Part shown: positions 4,575 through 35,839 of the stretch, piece by piece
How positions within the stretch are numbered: the stretch's first letter is position 1
Layout: each line of letters opens with the position of its first letter
Assembly: GCA_007988785.1 (NCBI GenBank)
Contig: BJUU01000019.1
Span: 1-47,550 of the forward strand
Direction: 5' to 3'
Origin: Agrococcus baldri
GTDB lineage: Bacteria > Actinomycetota > Actinomycetes > Actinomycetales > Microbacteriaceae
DNA: 47,550 nt
Translations under genes and position numbers: made by a program
Notes under the pieces: generated by a model
What the model was told of the DNA's origin: nothing
Databases searched by the model: none
What the model saw: only the letters and a program-made list of their open reading frames with translations

Positions 4575-4934
4575 ATGACCGACGCTGCCCAGCACTCGCA
4601 TGACGACGACGGCCTCGAGCAGGCCCGCGACATCGCGGAGGTGCCGGCGGTCGAGCTCATCAACACGGTCGCCATCCATCTGCTGAGCGCGGCGGCCGTC
4701 AAGGTCGGCCTCGCCGACGATCCCGAGCAGCAGCTCGACCTCGACGAGGCGCGCAAGCTCATCAACGCGCTCGCCGGGCTCGTGACCGCAGCGGCGCCCG
4801 AGGTGGGCAGCATGCACGCGGCCCCGCTGCGCGACGGGCTGCGGTCGGTGCAGCTCGCGTTCCGCGAGGCGAGCACGATCGCCGACGCGCCCGGCAAGGG
4901 GCCCGGCGAGAAGTTCACCGGCTCGGTCGTCTGA
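4575..4934 (+). CDS. DUF1844 family protein
   Basis: Conserved actinobacterial protein of unknown function, 119 residues. The DUF1844 core is recognisable as EVPAVELINTVAIHLLSAAAVKVGL followed by LDEARKLINALAGLV (about residues 22-75); the N-terminus is acidic and the protein looks soluble and mostly helical. The ATG is preceded by GGGAGAAGAG. It is divergent from infC, with both promoters between about 4541 and 4561 (candidate -10 TACCTT at 4556-4561). The gene commonly sits beside infC in this phylum, but no function can be deduced. A 7-bp inverted repeat overlapping its stop (4919-4940) may end transcription from both sides towards the convergent SseB gene. Confidence 0.88.
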   Translation: MTDAAQHSHDDDGLEQARDIAEVPAVELINTVAIHLLSAAAVKVGLADDPEQQLDLDEARKLINALAGLVTAAAPEVGSMHAAPLRDGLRSVQLAFREASTIADAPGKGPGEKFTGSVV

Positions 4935-4946
4935 GCCGGCTCCCGG

Positions 4947-5786
4947 CTACGCCCTGCCGCTCCGCCGGGCCTGCCATTCGGTGCGGGTGAGGGCGAGCGC
5001 CGCAGGCGCGACGAGCGGCAGCCGCGCGGATCCGCCGTCCCAGAGGTGCGCGCGCACCGCGAGGCCCGTGACGCGCTCGCGCACCACCTCGGAGCCGCTG
5101 AGCAGCCGCGCCGCCCGCTGCACCTGCTCGGTCGCGTCCTGCGCGCCGTCGACGAGCGCGTGCACCTCGAGCTCCGCCCCGGCGAGCCGGCTCCGCGGGT
5201 CGCCGGTCGCCAGCACCACCGCCTGCACCGCGGGCTGGGCGAACAGGGCCTCGGCGACGGCCGTGTGCACGGCCGCGTCCTCGGCACCCCACTGCCACGA
5301 GGCATCCGTCAGCAGCGCCTCGAGCATGGTGCGCGTGAGCACGAACTCGCTCTCGCTGCCGGGGTCGATGACGACGCGGGCGGGACCGTCGAGCGCTGCC
5401 GCGGCGGCGCGCTGCACGCTCGTCGGCACCGGCCGGGCCTTCGCGTTCCACGACTGCATCGCCGCGACGTGCGAGAACATCGGCAGGATGCCGCCGCCGT
5501 CGGGACCGGCCACGGTGACGATCGAGAGCTCCTGCGTCTTGTCGATCGTGCGACCGCGCTCATCGACGCCCGTCTCCCCCGCGGCGGCCAGCAGCGGCAC
5601 CAGCAGGCGCTGCCCGCGCAGCGCGTCGACCACGAGGGCCTGGCCCCCGGTGCCGGCGGCCAGCGCGCGCACGGCGTCGACGTAGCCTGCCGGCGCCGAG
5701 CCGTCGTCGCCCGCGTAGGCGGTGTCGTGATGGGTGAACGAGCGCCCCTCCCAGGGGCGGCCCGCCGAGTCGGCCGCGTGGCTCAC
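4947..5786 (-). CDS. SseB family protein
   Basis: The 279-residue product matches the SseB N-terminal domain family, whose biochemical role is unclear. Recognisable parts are the opening GRPWEGRSF, the central VPLLAAAGET ... TQELSIVTVAGPDG and PVPTSVQRAAAAALDGPARVVIDPGS, with a C-terminal half predicted to be alpha/beta. The GTG start at 5786 is 10 bases after the hisA stop; an in-frame start further upstream would lie inside hisA and reads as Arg/Ser-rich nonsense. It is the last gene of the hisC-hisB-hisH-hisA operon by position and orientation. That position is common in actinobacteria but does not prove a role in histidine synthesis. Confidence 0.82.
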   Translation of the reverse strand: MSHAADSAGRPWEGRSFTHHDTAYAGDDGSAPAGYVDAVRALAAGTGGQALVVDALRGQRLLVPLLAAAGETGVDERGRTIDKTQELSIVTVAGPDGGGILPMFSHVAAMQSWNAKARPVPTSVQRAAAAALDGPARVVIDPGSESEFVLTRTMLEALLTDASWQWGAEDAAVHTAVAEALFAQPAVQAVVLATGDPRSRLAGAELEVHALVDGAQDATEQVQRAARLLSGSEVVRERVTGLAVRAHLWDGGSARLPLVAPAALALTRTEWQARRSGRA

Positions 5787-6546: not shown

Positions 6547-6633
6547 GGGGAACGATGCCTTCTTCGGATGCGGTGGGTGATCGGCGCGGCGATCGGGCGT
6601 GCGATCAGCCCCAGCGATGGTACTCGCGGGGGG

Positions 6634-7266
6634 TCAGAGACCGCGAACCCAGTTCGACAGCAGGCGGATGCCCGCCTCGCCCGACTTCTCGGGGTGGAAC
6701 TGGGTCGCGCTCAGCGGGCCGTTCTCGACCGCGGCGATGAACCGCTCGCCGTGCTCGGCCCACGTGACGCGGGGCTGGCGGATGCGCGGGTGCGGGTCGA
6801 TGTGCCACTCGGTGGCCGCGTAGGAGTGCACGAAGTAGAAGCGCTCATCCCGCAGCCCGGCGAACAGCTCGGAGTCCTCCGGCGCGTCGACCTCGGCCCA
6901 GCCCATGTGGGGCAGGATGTCTGCCCGCAGGCGGCGCACCGTGCCGGGCCACTCGTCGAGCGCGTCGGTGTGGACGCCGCCCTCCTCGCCGGCGGAGAAG
7001 AGCACCTGCATGCCGACGCAGATGCCGAGCACCGGTCGCGTGCCCGCGAGGCGGCGGCCGATGAGCTCGCCGCCGCGGATGGCCTGGATGCCGGCCATGC
7101 AGGCGGCGATCGAGCCGACCCCCGGCACCACGAGGCCGTCGGCGGCCATCACGGCGCCGCGGTCGGCCGTCAGGGTGACGCTCGCGCCGGCGGCCTCGAG
7201 GGCCTTCGCCGCCGAGTGCACGTTGCCGAGCCCGTAGTCGAGCAGGGCGACGGTGGGCCGGGTCAC
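6634..7266 (-). CDS. hisH: Imidazole glycerol phosphate synthase glutaminase subunit
   Basis: Glutamine amidotransferase that releases ammonia from glutamine and channels it to HisF for making imidazole glycerol phosphate and AICAR. The 210-residue class-I amidotransferase has its full triad: nucleophile C83 in [11 protein letters not shown]191 and E193 in TQFHPEKSG. The N-terminal [14 protein letters not shown] is typical of HisH. The start is GTG at 7266. It sits between hisB and hisA on the same strand. The partner hisF is not in this window and must be elsewhere or further along the chromosome. Confidence 0.96.
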
Positions 7267-30930: not shown

Positions 30931-31415
30931 CGTGCCTCCTGCGCTCCAGTCTCGCGCATCCTGCGCAGCCCGAGCGCCTTGCGCGCGGCCATTCGCGCAC
31001 GCTTGCGATCGCGTGCGGCGTCGTAGGCCATCGACAGCCGCAGCCACGACTGCCAGGCATCGGGATTCGCCTCGACGTCGGCCTTCGCGACCGGGAAGGC
31101 CCGCTCGGCGGCGTCGCGGTCGGCGCGGCCGGAGGGAGTGGCCGGCAGCGGCTGCGGCATGCCGCCCGCCGCGTCGAGCTCGCGCACGGCGCGGTCGAGC
31201 CCGATGCCGAAGACGAGCTCGCGCGCGAGCGCCCACGCGCCCACGAGCGTGAAGACGACCAGCGCGAGGCCCACCGCGGTGCCGAGCGGCGTGCCGCTCA
31301 GCAGGAAGCCGACGGCGAGGCCGCCCGCGACGACGACGTAGAGCGCGAGCGCCGCGGCCATGACGAGCGCGAGCGTCCTGGCGGTGCCGCTGCGCGCAGC
31401 GGAGCGCTCGGTCAC
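30927..31415 (-). CDS. Putative membrane protein with TPR-like tail
   Basis: The 162-residue protein has two membrane helices (about residues 14-38 and 45-65) and a soluble C-terminal part, [30 protein letters not shown], resembling a single tetratricopeptide-type helix pair. I recognise no enzymatic motif. It overlaps dapB upstream and thyA downstream, each by 4 bases, so it is translated as part of the dapB-thyA-folA operon. Its role is unknown; the location may simply be conserved synteny. Confidence 0.78.
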
Positions 31416-32116
31416 GCGAGGTCCAGCAGGTCGCCGATGCCGACGGTCACGCCCGACTGCGGCTCGGCCCGCAGGGCCAGCAGGATGCCCGCCGAGTAGC
31501 TCTCGCTCGAGCTCGTGTCATGGCGGATCGTGAGCGTCTCCCCCGTGCCGCCGAAGACGACCTCCTGCCTGGCGACGACACCGGGCAGGCGCAGCGCGTG
31601 CACGGGCACGCCGGAGATGATCGTGCCGCGGCCCGGCTCGTCGGGGGTCGCCGGGCGGAAGCCGCGCACGGCGCCGATCGCCTCGGCGGTGCGGGTGGCG
31701 GTGCCGCTCGGCGCGTCGCGCTTGCGGTCGTGGTGCGCCTCCACCACCTCGACGGCCTCGAAGTGCTGCGCCGCGATCGTCGCCAGGTGCGTCTCGAGCA
31801 CCGAGCCGAGCGAGAAGTTCGGGACGATGCGGATGCGGTCGGCACCGCGGTCGCGCAGGGCGCTGATGCGCTCGTCGGTCCATCCGCTCGTGGCGACCAC
31901 GAGCGGCACGCCCGCCTCGGACGCCGCCTCGACGAGCCTGGCGCTGGCGGCCAGCACGGTGGCGTCGAAGATGACGTCCAGCCCGTCGAGCTCGAGGCCA
32001 TCGCGCACGTCGATCTCGACCGGCTCGAGGTCGTCGGCCTCCCGCACCAGCCGCAGCGCGAGCGAGCCCAGCCGCCCGGTGGAGCCTGCGATGCCGACGC
32101 GCCTGGTTCCTGCCAT
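31412..32116 (-). CDS. dapB: 4-hydroxy-tetrahydrodipicolinate reductase
   Basis: Reduces the DapA product with NAD(P)H in lysine/DAP synthesis. The 234-residue protein has the dinucleotide-binding [10 protein letters not shown] (8-17), the catalytic H128-H129 and K132 in [15 protein letters not shown], and the C-terminal substrate domain. The ATG is preceded by TAGGCT-6 nt, a leaderless signature. It heads the operon with the membrane protein, thyA and folA. Its divergent neighbour is a GNAT gene 55 bases away. Confidence 0.96.
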
Positions 32117-32122
32117 GGAACC

Positions 32123-32128
32123 AGCCTA
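32123..32128 (-). promoter_or_regulatory. Candidate -10 for leaderless dapB
   Basis: TAGGCT, 6 nt, then ATG; no Shine-Dalgarno sequence. Confidence 0.55.
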
Positions 32129-32159
32129 CGGCGTCGGCAGGTGGCGGCCGAGGCGGCCG

Positions 32160-32165
32160 TACAGT
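32160..32165 (+). promoter_or_regulatory. Candidate -10 for leaderless GNAT gene
   Basis: TACAGT, 6 nt, then GTG at 32172; this decides the start of the GNAT gene. Confidence 0.55.
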
Positions 32166-32171
32166 GGATCC

Positions 32172-32630
32172 GTGCCCATCACGATCGCACCCGAGGACCC
32201 GGCGACCGAGGTCGCGCAGTCGCTGCTGCAGGCCTACTTCGCCGACCGCGCCATCAGCTTCATCGGCGGCGAGTACCGCCCGAAGCCCGCCGATCCCGCC
32301 ACCCTGCGCGAGCCCCACGGCGCGTTCCTCGTGGCGCGGAGCGACGGCGAGGCGGTCGGCTGCGGCGCGCTCCGCCGGCTCGGGGCCGAGCGGTTCGAGG
32401 TCAAGCACCTCTACGTGGCGCCCGCCGGCCGCGGTCGCGGCACGGGAGCGGCGCTGCTGCAGGCGCTCGAGGACCGCGCCGTCGCGCTGGGCGCGAGCGA
32501 GGTGGTGCTCGACACGAACAGCTCGCTCGCGGCGGCCAACGGGCTCTACACGAGCCGCGGCTACGCATCCGTGCCCGCCTACAACGACAACCCGAACGCG
32601 ACGAGCTGGTTCGCCAAGCCCGTGCGTTGA
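32172..32630 (+). CDS. GNAT family N-acetyltransferase
   Basis: The 152-residue protein is a compact GNAT enzyme with EVKHLYVAPAGRGRGTGAALL (acetyl-CoA motif, about residues 76-96) and a C-terminal VVLDTNSSLAAANGLYTSRGY typical of small-molecule N-acetyltransferases; the substrate is unknown. The GTG start is set by the leaderless signature TACAGT-6 nt. Its TGA stop is formed by the first GTTGAGGG unit of the repeat array at 32626, so the gene ends inside a repeat. It is the left border of the accessory island between dapB and the M16 peptidase gene. Confidence 0.87.
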   Translation: MPITIAPEDPATEVAQSLLQAYFADRAISFIGGEYRPKPADPATLREPHGAFLVARSDGEAVGCGALRRLGAERFEVKHLYVAPAGRGRGTGAALLQALEDRAVALGASEVVLDTNSSLAAANGLYTSRGYASVPAYNDNPNATSWFAKPVR

Positions 32631-32696
32631 GGGTCTGCGTCTGAGTTGAGGGTTTGCGTCCGAGTTGAGGGCCGTGAGGACGCAGAACCTCAACTG
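32626..32696. repeat. Left repeat array of the DUF559 cassette (tandem 19-mers plus nested palindrome)
   Basis: Three direct units start at 32626, 32645 and 32664: GTTGAGGGTCTGCGTCTGA, GTTGAGGGTTTGCGTCCGA and a diverged third. The region 32644-32695 is also a nested palindrome: AGTTGAGG (32644-32651) pairs with CCTCAACT (32688-32695), and TGCGTCC (32655-32661) pairs with GGACGCA (32678-32684). The GNAT stop and, on the other strand, the DUF559 stop both lie inside repeat units. It could act as a bidirectional terminator and/or an element end. Confidence 0.85.
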
Positions 32697-33613
32697 GAGG
32701 CAGCGGCGAGCGCCGCCCGCACGCGCTCGACCACCTTCCAGGGCTGCGCGAGCATCGACGCGCTGAGCCGGATCACCCGCCAGCCGAGGCTGCGCAGCCG
32801 CTCATCGCGCTCGAGGTCGTGCGCCCGCTGCCGCGGATCGAGGAAGTGCTGCTCGCCGTCGTACTCGATCGCGACCTTCGCATCGCGGTAGAGCAGGTCG
32901 GGCTGCGCGATCAGCACTCCTTCATCGAAGATCTCGCCGTTCACCTCCGGCTCCGGCAGCCCCGCACGCACCAGCATGCAGCGCGTCGGCGTCTCCATGG
33001 GCGAGTCGACACCGGGGCGAGCCTCCTCGAGCGCGGCACGCAGGCGCGCGGAACCGGGTGCGGTGCCCCATGCCGTGAGCGCTGCCGCAAGCCGCTCCGG
33101 CGTCGCTGCCGGCCTCGCGAACCGCAGCAGCGGGTAGCGGTCGCGCGGCGCCATCAAGGCGTCGGCGACGACGATGAGGGCATCGAGATCGAGCGTGCGC
33201 GCGAGCAGGCACAGCGTGAGCACCGGCGAGGTGACAGGCAGCGAGTCGACCCGCCACGTCACGAGCCGCTCGGGCAGGACGGAGACGCTCTCGACGCCTG
33301 CGGTGCGCGGACGATAGGCGCCCCGCGGTACGACGATCGTCACCGGAGCGTCATCGACGGTCGTCGGCAGCGGCAGTCCGAGCAGCGCGGCAGCCGCCGG
33401 GCCGCCGATCAACTGCCCGGGCTTCAGCCGCGGCCCGTACTGCCGTGCTCGGCCGGCGAGGTCGTCTGCCAGGCCCTCGGCTCGGATGCCCCAGAAGGGC
33501 CGAGCGAGCTGCTTGGCGCGCAGGCGCTTCTCACTGGATCCGCGCGCGCGCAGGGTGGCGACGCCGAGCGAAGCGACGCCGGCGAGCTCGGGGATGTCGA
33601 TGTGCCCAGCCAT
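32690..33613 (-). CDS. DUF559 endonuclease-like protein (Vsr/PD-(D/E)XK type)
   Basis: The predicted 307-residue protein ends in a DUF559 domain related to very-short-patch-repair nucleases, with candidate catalytic residues E207 (METPTR), D239 (QPDLLY) and E250/D252 (IEYDGEQHF), then ERDERLRSLGWRVIRL. The N-terminal 190 residues resemble the helix-rich region that often precedes DUF559 in actinobacteria and has been compared with AbiEi-like antitoxins; I cannot prove that link. ATG at 33613 is preferred; ATG at 33706 would add 31 Arg-rich residues, and neither has a good Shine-Dalgarno sequence. The TGA stop lies within the left palindrome, and a mirrored repeat lies upstream at 33717-33770. 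Confidence 0.75.
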   Translation of the reverse strand: MAGHIDIPELAGVASLGVATLRARGSSEKRLRAKQLARPFWGIRAEGLADDLAGRARQYGPRLKPGQLIGGPAAAALLGLPLPTTVDDAPVTIVVPRGAYRPRTAGVESVSVLPERLVTWRVDSLPVTSPVLTLCLLARTLDLDALIVVADALMAPRDRYPLLRFARPAATPERLAAALTAWGTAPGSARLRAALEEARPGVDSPMETPTRCMLVRAGLPEPEVNGEIFDEGVLIAQPDLLYRDAKVAIEYDGEQHFLDPRQRAHDLERDERLRSLGWRVIRLSASMLAQPWKVVERVRAALAAASS

Positions 33614-33716
33614 GCCGCGCAGGATGCCCGGTCGGCGCGCCGTCGTGCGCCGCGCATCCGCCCGCCTGTGAATGACAGGCTGCTCGAGCCGCCTTGGCGT
33701 CGGCATGGGCGCGGCT

Positions 33717-33770
33717 CAGTTGAGGTTCTTTGCCCTCTGCGCCGTCAACTCGGACGCAAACCCTCAACTG
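33717..33770. repeat. Right, mirrored repeat of the DUF559 cassette
   Basis: Inverted copy of the left repeat: TCAACTCGGACGCAAACC (33745-33762) is the reverse complement of the left 32645-32669 segment, and GTTGAGGTTC matches the left GAACCTCAAC in mirror. It is itself a palindrome, with CAGTTGAGG (33717-33725) pairing with CCTCAACTG (33762-33770). It lies upstream of the DUF559 gene, between it and the histidine phosphatase gene. Confidence 0.85.
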
Positions 33771-33795
33771 GGCGAGGCGGGAGCGGGGTGGCGGG

Positions 33796-34398
33796 TCAGT
33801 AGGGCTGCGGGAGGGGGAGGCCGGTGCGGTCCTCGACGGGCAGGTGGCCGAGGTCGTTGTGGACGACGAGCTGCGGGGGCTTGCCGGTGCGGCGGCGGAT
33901 GATCGTGAGGCCGCAGTTGGCCTGATTGAGGCTCATCCACTGCCACTCGGGCGACTGCATGACCTCGCGCACGAACCAGCCGATGACGAAGTTGTGGGTC
34001 ACGAGCAGCTCGTTGACGTCGCCGCGCGAGGGGCGCAGCCACTGCTCCCCCGCGTCGTGCATCTGCGCAGCGCCCGCCTCGGCCTCCTCGGGTCGCACGC
34101 TCGCCAGGAAGCGGTGGAAGCCGACCGGCGTGTGCTCGGTCCTGCCGGAGGGGATGCAGTCGAGCAGCAGCGACGACTTCTCGAACTCGACCGCCGGCAG
34201 CCGCTGCTGCATGATCGACGCCGTCTCGGTCGCGCGCTGCAGCGGCGAGGTCCAGGCGTGATCGAAGTGCACGCCCGAGAGCCGCTGCGCGATCGCCTGC
34301 GCCTGCCGCACGCCGCGTGCGGAGAGTCGCCCGTCGTCGACGCCGTGCTCTGCATCGAGCTGCTCCCCGTGCCGGACGAGGTAGAGCAGGTGAGCCAT
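33796..34398 (-). CDS. Histidine phosphatase family protein
   Basis: Phosphoglycerate-mutase-like phosphatase of unknown substrate, 200 residues. The catalytic motif YLVRHGE places the phospho-accepting H10, followed by LSARGVRQAQAIAQRL and WTSPLQRATETA; the second histidine is in LLVTHNFVIGWF. The ATG at 34398 has GGAGG five bases upstream; the longer reading extends through the gap towards the M16 gene. It lies in the accessory island next to the right-hand repeat. Small-molecule phosphatases of this group are hard to assign by sequence alone. Confidence 0.88.
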   Translation of the reverse strand: MAHLLYLVRHGEQLDAEHGVDDGRLSARGVRQAQAIAQRLSGVHFDHAWTSPLQRATETASIMQQRLPAVEFEKSSLLLDCIPSGRTEHTPVGFHRFLASVRPEEAEAGAAQMHDAGEQWLRPSRGDVNELLVTHNFVIGWFVREVMQSPEWQWMSLNQANCGLTIIRRRTGKPPQLVVHNDLGHLPVEDRTGLPLPQPY

Positions 34399-34412
34399 CG
34401 CATCCTCCGCGT

Positions 34413-34430
34413 GGGCGCGCCGCTGCGCCC
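34413..34430 (-). terminator. Possible hairpin after the M16 peptidase gene
   Basis: GGGCGC-6 nt-GCGCCC in the 67-bp gap between the M16 stop and the histidine phosphatase start. Short stem, no U-tract. Confidence 0.3.
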
Positions 34431-34465
34431 GGTTCGTGACCATCGGGGCGCGCGAGCGTGCCCTG

Positions 34466-35839
34466 CTAGTGAGCGGCTGGGACCGCTGACTCCACCGTAC
34501 CCCGCGCGCCTGAGTCGACGAGCCGGTCGAGGCCGTCCGGCACCTGCCCGACCGCCGCGATCGAGCGCGCGCCGCCCGCGAGCGCTGCCGCGAGCTCGCG
34601 CACATCGGCGTCGGTGACACGGTCGATGCGCTCGAGCGTGGCGTCGATGTCGAGGAACTCCCCCAGCGTCAGCTCGGCTCGGCCGAGCCGCGCCATGCGC
34701 GTGTCGCTCTCCTCCAGCGCGAGCGCCGAGCCGCCCGCGAGCTGCCCCTTCGCGCGGCCCAGCTCCTCGTCGCTCGCGCCCTCCGCGAGGCGCTCGAGCT
34801 CGCCCAGCATGAGGCCGGCGACCTCGAGCGTCTTGTGCGGCTGGCAGGCCGCGGCCATGCCCATGAGCCCCGCGTCGGCGTAGCCGGAGGCGAAGGAGTA
34901 GACGGAGTAGGCGAGGCCGCGGCGCTCGCGGATCTCCTGGAACAGCCGCGACGACATGCCGGCGCCCAGCACCGCGTTGAGCACGGCCATGGTGCTGCGG
35001 CGCGGGTCGCCCGCCGTCAGCCCCGGCGTGCCGATCATGAGGCTGACCTGCTCGAGCGGGCGCCGCACGACCGTGAGGCCGCCGGCCGTGTACGGCTGCA
35101 GCGCTGCGTCGCGGCGGGCCTTCGGGGCGGCGTCCTCGAGCGACCAGCCGTAGCGCCCGAGGGCCTCCTGCAGCTGCTCGACGACCGTGTCGTGGTCGAC
35201 GGCGCCGGCGACGGTCACCACCAGATCGCTCGCGTCGTAGTGCTCGCGGTAGTGCTCGGCGACGCGCTCGCGCGAGACGGCCCGGATCGACTCGTTCGTG
35301 CCGCCGATGGGCCTGCCCAGCGGCGCGTCGAGCCCGTGCACGAGCTCGCTCAGCCGCTCACCCGCGACGTCGCCGGGATCGTCGTCGGCCATCGCGAGCT
35401 CCTCCAGGATGACCTCGCGCTCGTGGTCGAACTCGGCCGGGTCGAGCAGCGAGGAGGTCACCATGTCCGCGAGCACGTCGACGGCCATGCCGAGGTCGCG
35501 GTCGCGCACCTTGGCGTAGTAGCAGGTGTGCTCCTTCGCGGTGAGCGCGTTGTGCTCGCCCCCGACCTCGTCGAACGCGACCGCGATGTCGAAGGCGCTG
35601 CGGGTGGGGGTGCCCTTGAACAGCAGGTGCTCGAGGAAGTGCGTCGCGCCGCGCGCATCCTCCCGCTCGTCGCGCGAGCCGACCGGCACCCAGAAGCCCA
35701 CGGAGGCGCTCGCGGCGCCCGGCACCTGCTCGGTGAGCACGCGCACGCCGCTCGGCAGCACGCTCCTGCGCACCACCGCACCGCCGGCGGCGTTGATGAC
35801 GATCTCGGGGGTCTCGAGCGGCAGGGCGACAGCAGGCAT
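34466..35839 (-). CDS. M16 family zinc peptidase (PepR-like)
   Basis: The 457-residue protein resembles mitochondrial-processing-peptidase-like M16B enzymes. The inverted zinc motif is H67-x2-E70-H71 (THFLEHLLF), with the third ligand E147 in EVILEELAMADDDPGD; the C-terminal non-catalytic half includes FQEIRERRGLAYSVYSF. The gene normally follows pnp in actinobacteria, as here. The ATG is preceded by TAGGAT-6 nt, a leaderless signature, after the pnp terminator hairpin. Physiological substrates are unknown. Confidence 0.93.
   Translation of the reverse strand: MPAVALPLETPEIVINAAGGAVVRRSVLPSGVRVLTEQVPGAASASVGFWVPVGSRDEREDARGATHFLEHLLFKGTPTRSAFDIAVAFDEVGGEHNALTAKEHTCYYAKVRDRDLGMAVDVLADMVTSSLLDPAEFDHEREVILEELAMADDDPGDVAGERLSELVHGLDAPLGRPIGGTNESIRAVSRERVAEHYREHYDASDLVVTVAGAVDHDTVVEQLQEALGRYGWSLEDAAPKARRDAALQPYTAGGLTVVRRPLEQVSLMIGTPGLTAGDPRRSTMAVLNAVLGAGMSSRLFQEIRERRGLAYSVYSFASGYADAGLMGMAAACQPHKTLEVAGLMLGELERLAEGASDEELGRAKGQLAGGSALALEESDTRMARLGRAELTLGEFLDIDATLERIDRVTDADVRELAAALAGGARSIAAVGQVPDGLDRLVDSGARGTVESAVPAAH

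Follow-up and report, generated by a model that had tools for sequence, protein, structure and literature searches.

The locus described here raises the question of why a single nuclease gene should lie between two mirrored palindromes. The window analysed is the whole 47,550-nucleotide stretch of contig BJUU01000019.1 of Agrococcus baldri. It corresponds to contig 19 in a genome of 3.16 Mb (designated G000). The gap between an acetyltransferase gene and a histidine phosphatase gene holds the nuclease cassette, and the features of this region are listed below.

32172..32630, plus strand: GNAT-like acetyltransferase gene, neighbour (name read from the translation, without a profile match in the frame)
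32626..32643, plus strand: extra partial repeat copy (GTTGAGGGTCTGCGTC...) (direct repeat, sequence, gene-tail comparison across genomes)
32644..32696, no strand assigned: left palindrome, REP-like, 53 nt, hairpin-folding (sequence, repeat search, folding)
32690..33706, minus strand: DUF559 (Vsr/EDxHD-like) nuclease gene, 338 codons (ORF list, profile match, homologues, structure model)
33717..33769, no strand assigned: right palindrome, 53 nt (sequence, repeat search, folding)
33796..34620, minus strand: histidine phosphatase gene, neighbour (found in 22 of the 24 genus genomes)

The two imperfect inverted repeats of about 50 bp reported in an earlier note on this DNA are present as arms 32644-32696 and 33717-33769, 53 nt long and 87% complementary, so that the right palindrome is an 87% inverted copy of the left. 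Each repeat is itself palindromic, as had been noted, with DNA self-folding z scores of -4.1 to -4.7 and none of 200 shuffles folding as well. The window contains two exact copies of the shared 17-mer core and a third with two mismatches, against an expectation of 0.09. The left repeat had been delimited as 32626-32696; the palindrome proper occupies 32644-32696, whereas the first ~18 bases (32626-32643) form an extra partial copy, in which the acetyltransferase gene has its TGA stop codon (32628-32630). The stop codon of the nuclease gene (TCA, 32690-32692) is located within the left palindrome, and the right palindrome lies 10 nt upstream of the listed start of the nuclease ORF. The closest named homologue of the nuclease, also from A. 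baldri, is 79% identical; its match to the window nuclease starts at residue 32, and the ATG at 33613 (minus strand) encoding this residue is a possible true start. The same palindromes with the same spacing occur in the A. baldri homologue record and in the congeneric genome G001. The further idea that the palindromes are nested applies to some families but not as a general rule, the outer motif recurring in the centre at p ≤ 0.05 in 11 of 69 palindromes. A scan of 32500-33900 revealed no T-run terminator and no promoter. The Rfam scan of 31000-35500 yielded one match, an ASdes sRNA at 35184-35257 on the plus strand, which at 24 bits is below the gathering threshold of 40 and probably due to chance.

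The enclosed 338-residue ORF is the one DUF559 gene that had been recognised at this position. It matches DUF559 (PF04480) over residues 270-332 with 29.8 bits, above the cut-off of 20.6; its match to PF18741 is below the curated cut-off, and NCBIfam gave no match above cut-off. A weak AbiEi match covers residues 96-229 (E 1.2e-4), the genes alongside being the acetyltransferase and the histidine phosphatase. The AlphaFold2 model, computed with 18 homologues, has a mean pLDDT of 73.7; the C-terminal part scores high, and the N-terminal part is poorly modelled, with the first 38 residues below 50. Foldseek returned no structure match at E 0.001 or better, and the best solved-structure match, a weak one, is the catalytic domain of I-Bth0305I (3r3p; TMt 0.76, probability 1.00, E 0.036). 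Conservation across 83 homologues is nearly complete at S235, E238, D270, E281, H287 and D297, each retained in 81-83 of them (E238 in 83, D270 in 81, H287 in 82 and D297 in 82). E238, D270, H287 and D297 would map onto the EDxHD motif, and the two-fold symmetric palindromes of 50-60 bp may fit a dimer of the I-Bth0305I kind. The earlier note had also seen neither transposase nor integrase, which is borne out for the IS200/RAYT family PF01797 in this genome, the scope of the search being PF01797 plus Pfam on five window proteins. The PF01797 profile (Y1/HUH transposase) matched in none of the 24 genus genomes at E ≤ 0.01 (completeness 65-100%) and in 6 of 14 named genomes used as control. Thus, the known kind of RAYT is an unlikely engine. 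No clear mobile carrier appeared among plasmids (four weak records) or phages (one weak record).

A first palindrome scan showed many other DUF559 genes flanked on both sides by palindromes of ~50-60 bp, the sequence differing each time. A flank score was defined as the highest ungapped match between left and right flanks, taken up to 250 bp from the gene, with a threshold of 16. The 94 loci considered were reduced to 86 with a tblastn match and then to 82 with full flanks, from 24 genomes of the genus (4 of the 86 were without full flanks). The eight loci without a tblastn match are L175, L177-L179, L029-L031 and L033, of which L029, L030, L031 and L033 score 14, 18, 13 and 17, respectively, in a separate flank list. 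A match of at least 16 was found in 57 of the 82 DUF559 loci and of at least 25 in 42; L035 and L113 are one gene counted twice, both below threshold, so the 57 are drawn from at most 81 distinct genes. Of 400 cross-locus pairs, 16 reached the threshold, as did 2 of 161 distant windows. Among 154 non-DUF559 genes, called in the window and the fetched loci after removal of 49 DUF559-like genes, four reach 16 and none 25. The repeat sequence varies from gene to gene among the DUF559 loci. The expectation that repeats flank the homologues therefore holds for the 57 loci and not for the other 25, which fall below the threshold and show no clear matching pair. Grouping by chromosomal location gave 21 groups, 18 of which have at least one locus at 16 or above and 14 a median of at least 16. 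Because DUF559 loci, like palindrome copies, share ancestry, these counts are not independent.

Beyond this set, 10 of 22 rows with an ORF from distant DUF559 genes, found by HMM in seven genomes, reach 16 (two rows are one gene, one had been counted before, and 7 of the 29 loci gave no ORF). The Mycobacteriaceae homologues match at 16 or more in 8 of 12 loci. Two Leucobacter homologues, one from an Agrococcus MAG (near the contig end) and one from Nitrincola remain below 16 within 250 bp; one Leucobacter homologue reaches 16 within 900 bp. The earlier proposal to search related genomes for the core itself proved of limited use: an 18-mer core (one mismatch) was found in 4 of 398 genomes across the family, namely in 3 of the 10 genus genomes in this draw and as one stray match in another genus, so that the breadth of the system is not demonstrable in that way.

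Several loci show arrangements of their own. In the location group of L032 and L142-L172 (19 loci, e.g. L156 and L162), many members carry mirrored tandem arrays rather than single palindromes, with units of ~20 bp such as GAGTGGCGCCTCCCGCACCT and an array sequence that varies between genomes. The Mycolicibacterium locus L044 contains three palindromes (4700-4760, 5670-5730 and 6621-6672); two flank the DUF559 gene, one of them encoding its C-terminal residues and stop, and the third follows the next gene. The distant DUF559 genes of L309, L313, L317, L276 and L323 have palindromes ending in CTCAACG or TTCAACC, and share a GTTGAG-like end with the window family. L323 carries GCACAACGCAAGCCC, which is present also in the G008 gap (L194).

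The chromosomal site of the cassette is common to most of the genus. The phosphatase gene is found in 22 of 24 genomes and the acetyltransferase gene adjoins it in 20 of these loci, which contain the cassette in two cases (G000 and G001) and lack it in 18. The stop-to-stop gap at the 18 loci without the cassette measures -7 to 269 bp. By eye, the repeats in the G002, G012 and G023 gaps resemble the flanks of the same genome's DUF559 gene elsewhere, and the palindrome in the G008 gap matches the flanks of a G002 DUF559 gene. A hot spot open to any repeat could account for palindromes at shared gaps. Many nuclease genes occupy locations common to several genomes, thus the cassette seems to move little.

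Scattered solitary copies of the palindromes, which the earlier note had suggested looking for, do exist in G000 and its relatives. A 63-base query identified four long places of the repeat in G000, two at the cassette and the others at C7:20238-20289 and C1:224198-224259; this genome has nine DUF559 matches, seven above the cut-off. The solitary palindrome at C7:20238-20289 (L026) lies directly 3' of a tRNA gene reading as tRNA-Lys. The TGAGGTTTTCGGCCC arm (one mismatch) has 50 matches in G006, 18 in G007 and 24 in G013, with two stray matches in the other 21 genomes, and these three are exactly the genomes of the 24 with a TGAGGTTTTCGGCCC-flanked nuclease; the reversed pattern, used as a control, has no match in the 24 genomes. 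Likewise, the GATGGAAAAGTCCCGAC arm (two mismatches) has 19 matches in its own genome, G004, and none in the 23 others. The Mycobacteriaceae palindrome GCACGGTTGTTGNC, searched exactly, is present in 6 of the 12 genomes behind the related loci; it flanks the fetched homologue in G415, G418 and G419 and is not at both ends of the fetched homologue in G414 (1 match), G416 (3) and G420 (7). Abundance that follows the cognate gene is thus seen for the TGAGGTTTTCGGCCC and GATGGAAAAGTCCCGAC families, and the picture is mixed for the window family and Mycobacteriaceae. The window's palindrome family occurs in 6 of 24 genomes. In G008, G010, G014 and G019 none of the DUF559 matches examined is flanked by window-family palindromes. 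The palindromes of these four genomes may have been left by a nuclease since lost; alternatively, they may weaken the proposed tie between the repeats and DUF559 genes. Some of them, at L180-L183 in G008 and at the G010, G014 and G019 loci, are near-perfect.

The dispersed palindromes are predominantly intergenic. Among 47 from G006, G013 and a portion of G007, convergent genes flank 23, one lies inside a called gene, and in nine the palindrome's own TGA is the stop codon of a flanking gene according to a simple gene caller. Their variable positions pair above the independent-column expectation (e.g. 46 of 47 versus 22 expected), an excess to which the mixture of two subtypes adds.

The palindromes fall into two main subtypes, A and B, distinguished in both arms. 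G006 contains 22 of type A, 6 of type B and 4 others, and G013 contains 1 of type A and 10 of type B (Fisher p = 1.1e-4, the copies not being independent); the four palindromes read in G007 are one A, two B and one other. The nuclease is flanked by type A in G006 and by type B in G007 and G013. An orthologous locus was available, among the loci fetched, for 11 of the 27 G006 loci. Five of the 11 (L244, L248, L249, L257 and L261) have type A in G006 and type B in G013 or G007, where some of the flanking bases differ as well, and one (L256/L266) has B followed by A in G006 versus B alone in G013. The remaining five have like subtypes in G006 and G013, or a minor third type. Such swaps are hard to reach by point mutation and point to copying within the genome towards the palindrome of the resident nuclease. 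The orthologous-gap alignments showed no recognisable target-site duplication and no defined junction.

The palindromes also change together with the protein. Comparison of 57 loci (1596 pairs; Spearman 0.29) showed that palindromes are shared by 62% of the pairs at 70% protein identity or more, 8% at 50-70%, 1-2% at 25-50% and 2 of 20 pairs below 25%. Twenty-five pairs at the same location were picked and classed by eye, with 18 classed and 7 left out. In nine pairs the palindrome is kept, the nucleases are 79-99% identical and the flanking proteins 88-99%; in nine the palindrome is switched, the nucleases are 57-76% identical and the flanking proteins 74-98%. The pairs left out, in which a palindrome or an aligned flank is missing or the relation is unclear, are L149/L163 (70%), L158/L171 (53%), L097/L134 (45%), L097/L093 (67%), L097/L102 (66%), L173/L174 (80%) and L162/L167 (90%). 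The clearest switch is that between G006 and G007, where the nucleases share 59% identity and the neighbouring proteins 98% and 92%. Residues 49-101 diverge most in switched pairs (53% versus 91% identity; nine switched and eight kept pairs), and this segment is therefore likely to be the palindrome reader.

Taken together, the window is best read as one member of a REP/RAYT-like replicator system driven by a Vsr/EDxHD-type nuclease with its own palindrome of ~50-60 bp, a reading to which a probability of roughly two in three (0.68) is assigned. It draws on the association with the gene, gene specificity, dispersal, subtype differences at orthologous sites, co-divergence and the retention of catalytic-type residues, all of them read from sequence comparison. 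The likeness to REP/RAYT with a different enzyme that had been put forward for this locus accords well with the gene-specific flanks at 57 of 82 loci, the scattered solitary copies, the co-change with the nuclease and the empty RAYT profile. The resident nuclease, consisting of an N-terminal winged-helix-like part and a C-terminal Vsr/EDxHD-type domain, would recognise its own palindrome, presumably as a dimer bound through the N-terminal part. The bound nuclease would then cut or nick the palindrome, and repair or replication of the break would copy the palindrome into intergenic sites, whether new or already occupied. The result would be a REP/RAYT-like replicator with homing-endonuclease chemistry.

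Other explanations are partly compatible with each other and with this reading. The nearest is a strict homing endonuclease gene, in which solitary palindromes are cut and the whole gene is copied in to yield a palindrome-gene-palindrome structure. The I-Bth0305I fold match speaks for it, as do, among the matches listed, cassettes located where relatives have a solitary palindrome (L099 versus L236/L271, and L173, L174 and L176 versus L257/L267). However, the solitary palindromes at these sites belong to another family, the same-site overlap is small and by a rough estimate near the expectation for a shared-gap hot spot, and the two other full palindrome copies of G000 adjoin none of its nine DUF559 matches; this explanation is judged unlikely. 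Whole-cassette homing into solitary palindromes was accordingly rejected as the main route, the few same-site cases listed not being clearly beyond chance by the same rough estimate. A little less likely still is a role of the palindromes as host transcription terminators, or as insulators separating convergent genes, with the DUF559 gene using them as any other gene would. The position of 23 of 47 dispersed palindromes between convergent genes, with 1 of 47 inside a called gene, would suit such a role, and so would the nine of 47 that supply a flanking gene's TGA stop (simple gene caller). Against this, matching flanks occur in just 4 of 154 other genes, the families vary between genomes and track the resident nuclease in the two families so tested, and 32500-33900 contains no T-run terminator.

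The weak AbiEi match (residues 96-229, E 1.2e-4) and the N-terminal peak of divergence in switched pairs would equally be expected if the palindromes were operators, bound by the winged-helix-like part for control of its own gene and a host regulon, with the nuclease taking no part in their spread. The chance of this is considered slim, since 81-83 of 83 homologues retain the catalytic-type residues, a palindrome is present at the gene's 3' end as well, and the near-identical copies within a genome and the orthologous subtype swaps point to copying. Least probable is hitchhiking as the basis of the link to DUF559, with some other transposase mobilising passive palindromes in trans. Window-family palindromes do occur in genomes without a detected cognate gene, and the transposase search covered the PF01797 family alone; but none of the 24 genomes has a PF01797 match, in a search whose controls worked, and the gene-specific pairing and co-switching with the nuclease would be left unexplained.

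A broader proposition extends the replicator reading of the window. DUF559 nucleases may constitute a second, unrelated engine class for REP-like replicators, in which a dimer breaks the palindrome and host repair swaps in the nuclease's own for older ones at intergenic sites, a palindrome-for-palindrome homing, such that palindrome populations track the resident specificity in Actinobacteria and perhaps beyond. This is put forward tentatively, at somewhat less than even odds. If true, it would represent an independent invention of the REP-like lifestyle, tied to a hydrolytic nuclease, and would assign a function to a family that still goes by the name DUF559. It would also offer a prediction of what the orphan palindromes and mirrored repeat arrays of actinobacterial genomes are. 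The nine nuclease-palindrome pairs with switched specificity at one location make recognition directly testable. The earlier impression that no system of this kind has been described agrees with the literature searched, in which, among the papers listed, no description linking DUF559 genes to palindromic repeats was found (subscription papers and bioRxiv being mostly outside its coverage).

Three known systems bear comparison with the cassette. The window nuclease resembles DUF559/REase_MTES_1575 in that it matches PF04480 above and PF18741 below the cut-off. MTES_1575 is described as a domain of Vsr type that is joined to HEPN and further domains, and the part of its description that was available contains no palindrome link (PMC3710099). 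The second system is the homing endonuclease I-Bth0305I, which is reported to dimerise on a target of nearly 60 bp (PMC3943268). It is the best, though weak, fold match of the nuclease domain, and its dimer target is close in length to the palindromes described here. In contrast to EDxHD homing endonucleases, the DUF559 gene lies between two palindromes, outside an intron or intein, and its putative targets are many and dispersed. The third is REP/RAYT, in whose published accounts, in the text available, the gene lies between two copies of a dispersed, extragenic palindrome and each gene has its own (PMC2817692, PMC3116915). The same text credits REP dispersal to one enzyme class, the RAYTs (PMC2817692, PMC3116915), and Nunvar et al. 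describe RAYTs as evolving faster than their neighbours, with REP numbers that follow the gene and usually exceed 100 per genome (PMC2817692). The enzyme here differs, being a Vsr/PD-(D/E)XK-like nuclease rather than an HUH/Y1 tyrosine transposase, and the copy number is lower, with four full-length places in G000 and ~30 in G006. Many DUF559 genes too are flanked by their own dispersed palindromes, the abundance of which follows the cognate gene in two families and gives a mixed picture in the window family and Mycobacteriaceae, and the co-change of nuclease and palindrome resembles the pattern reported for RAYTs in the available text (PMC2817692).
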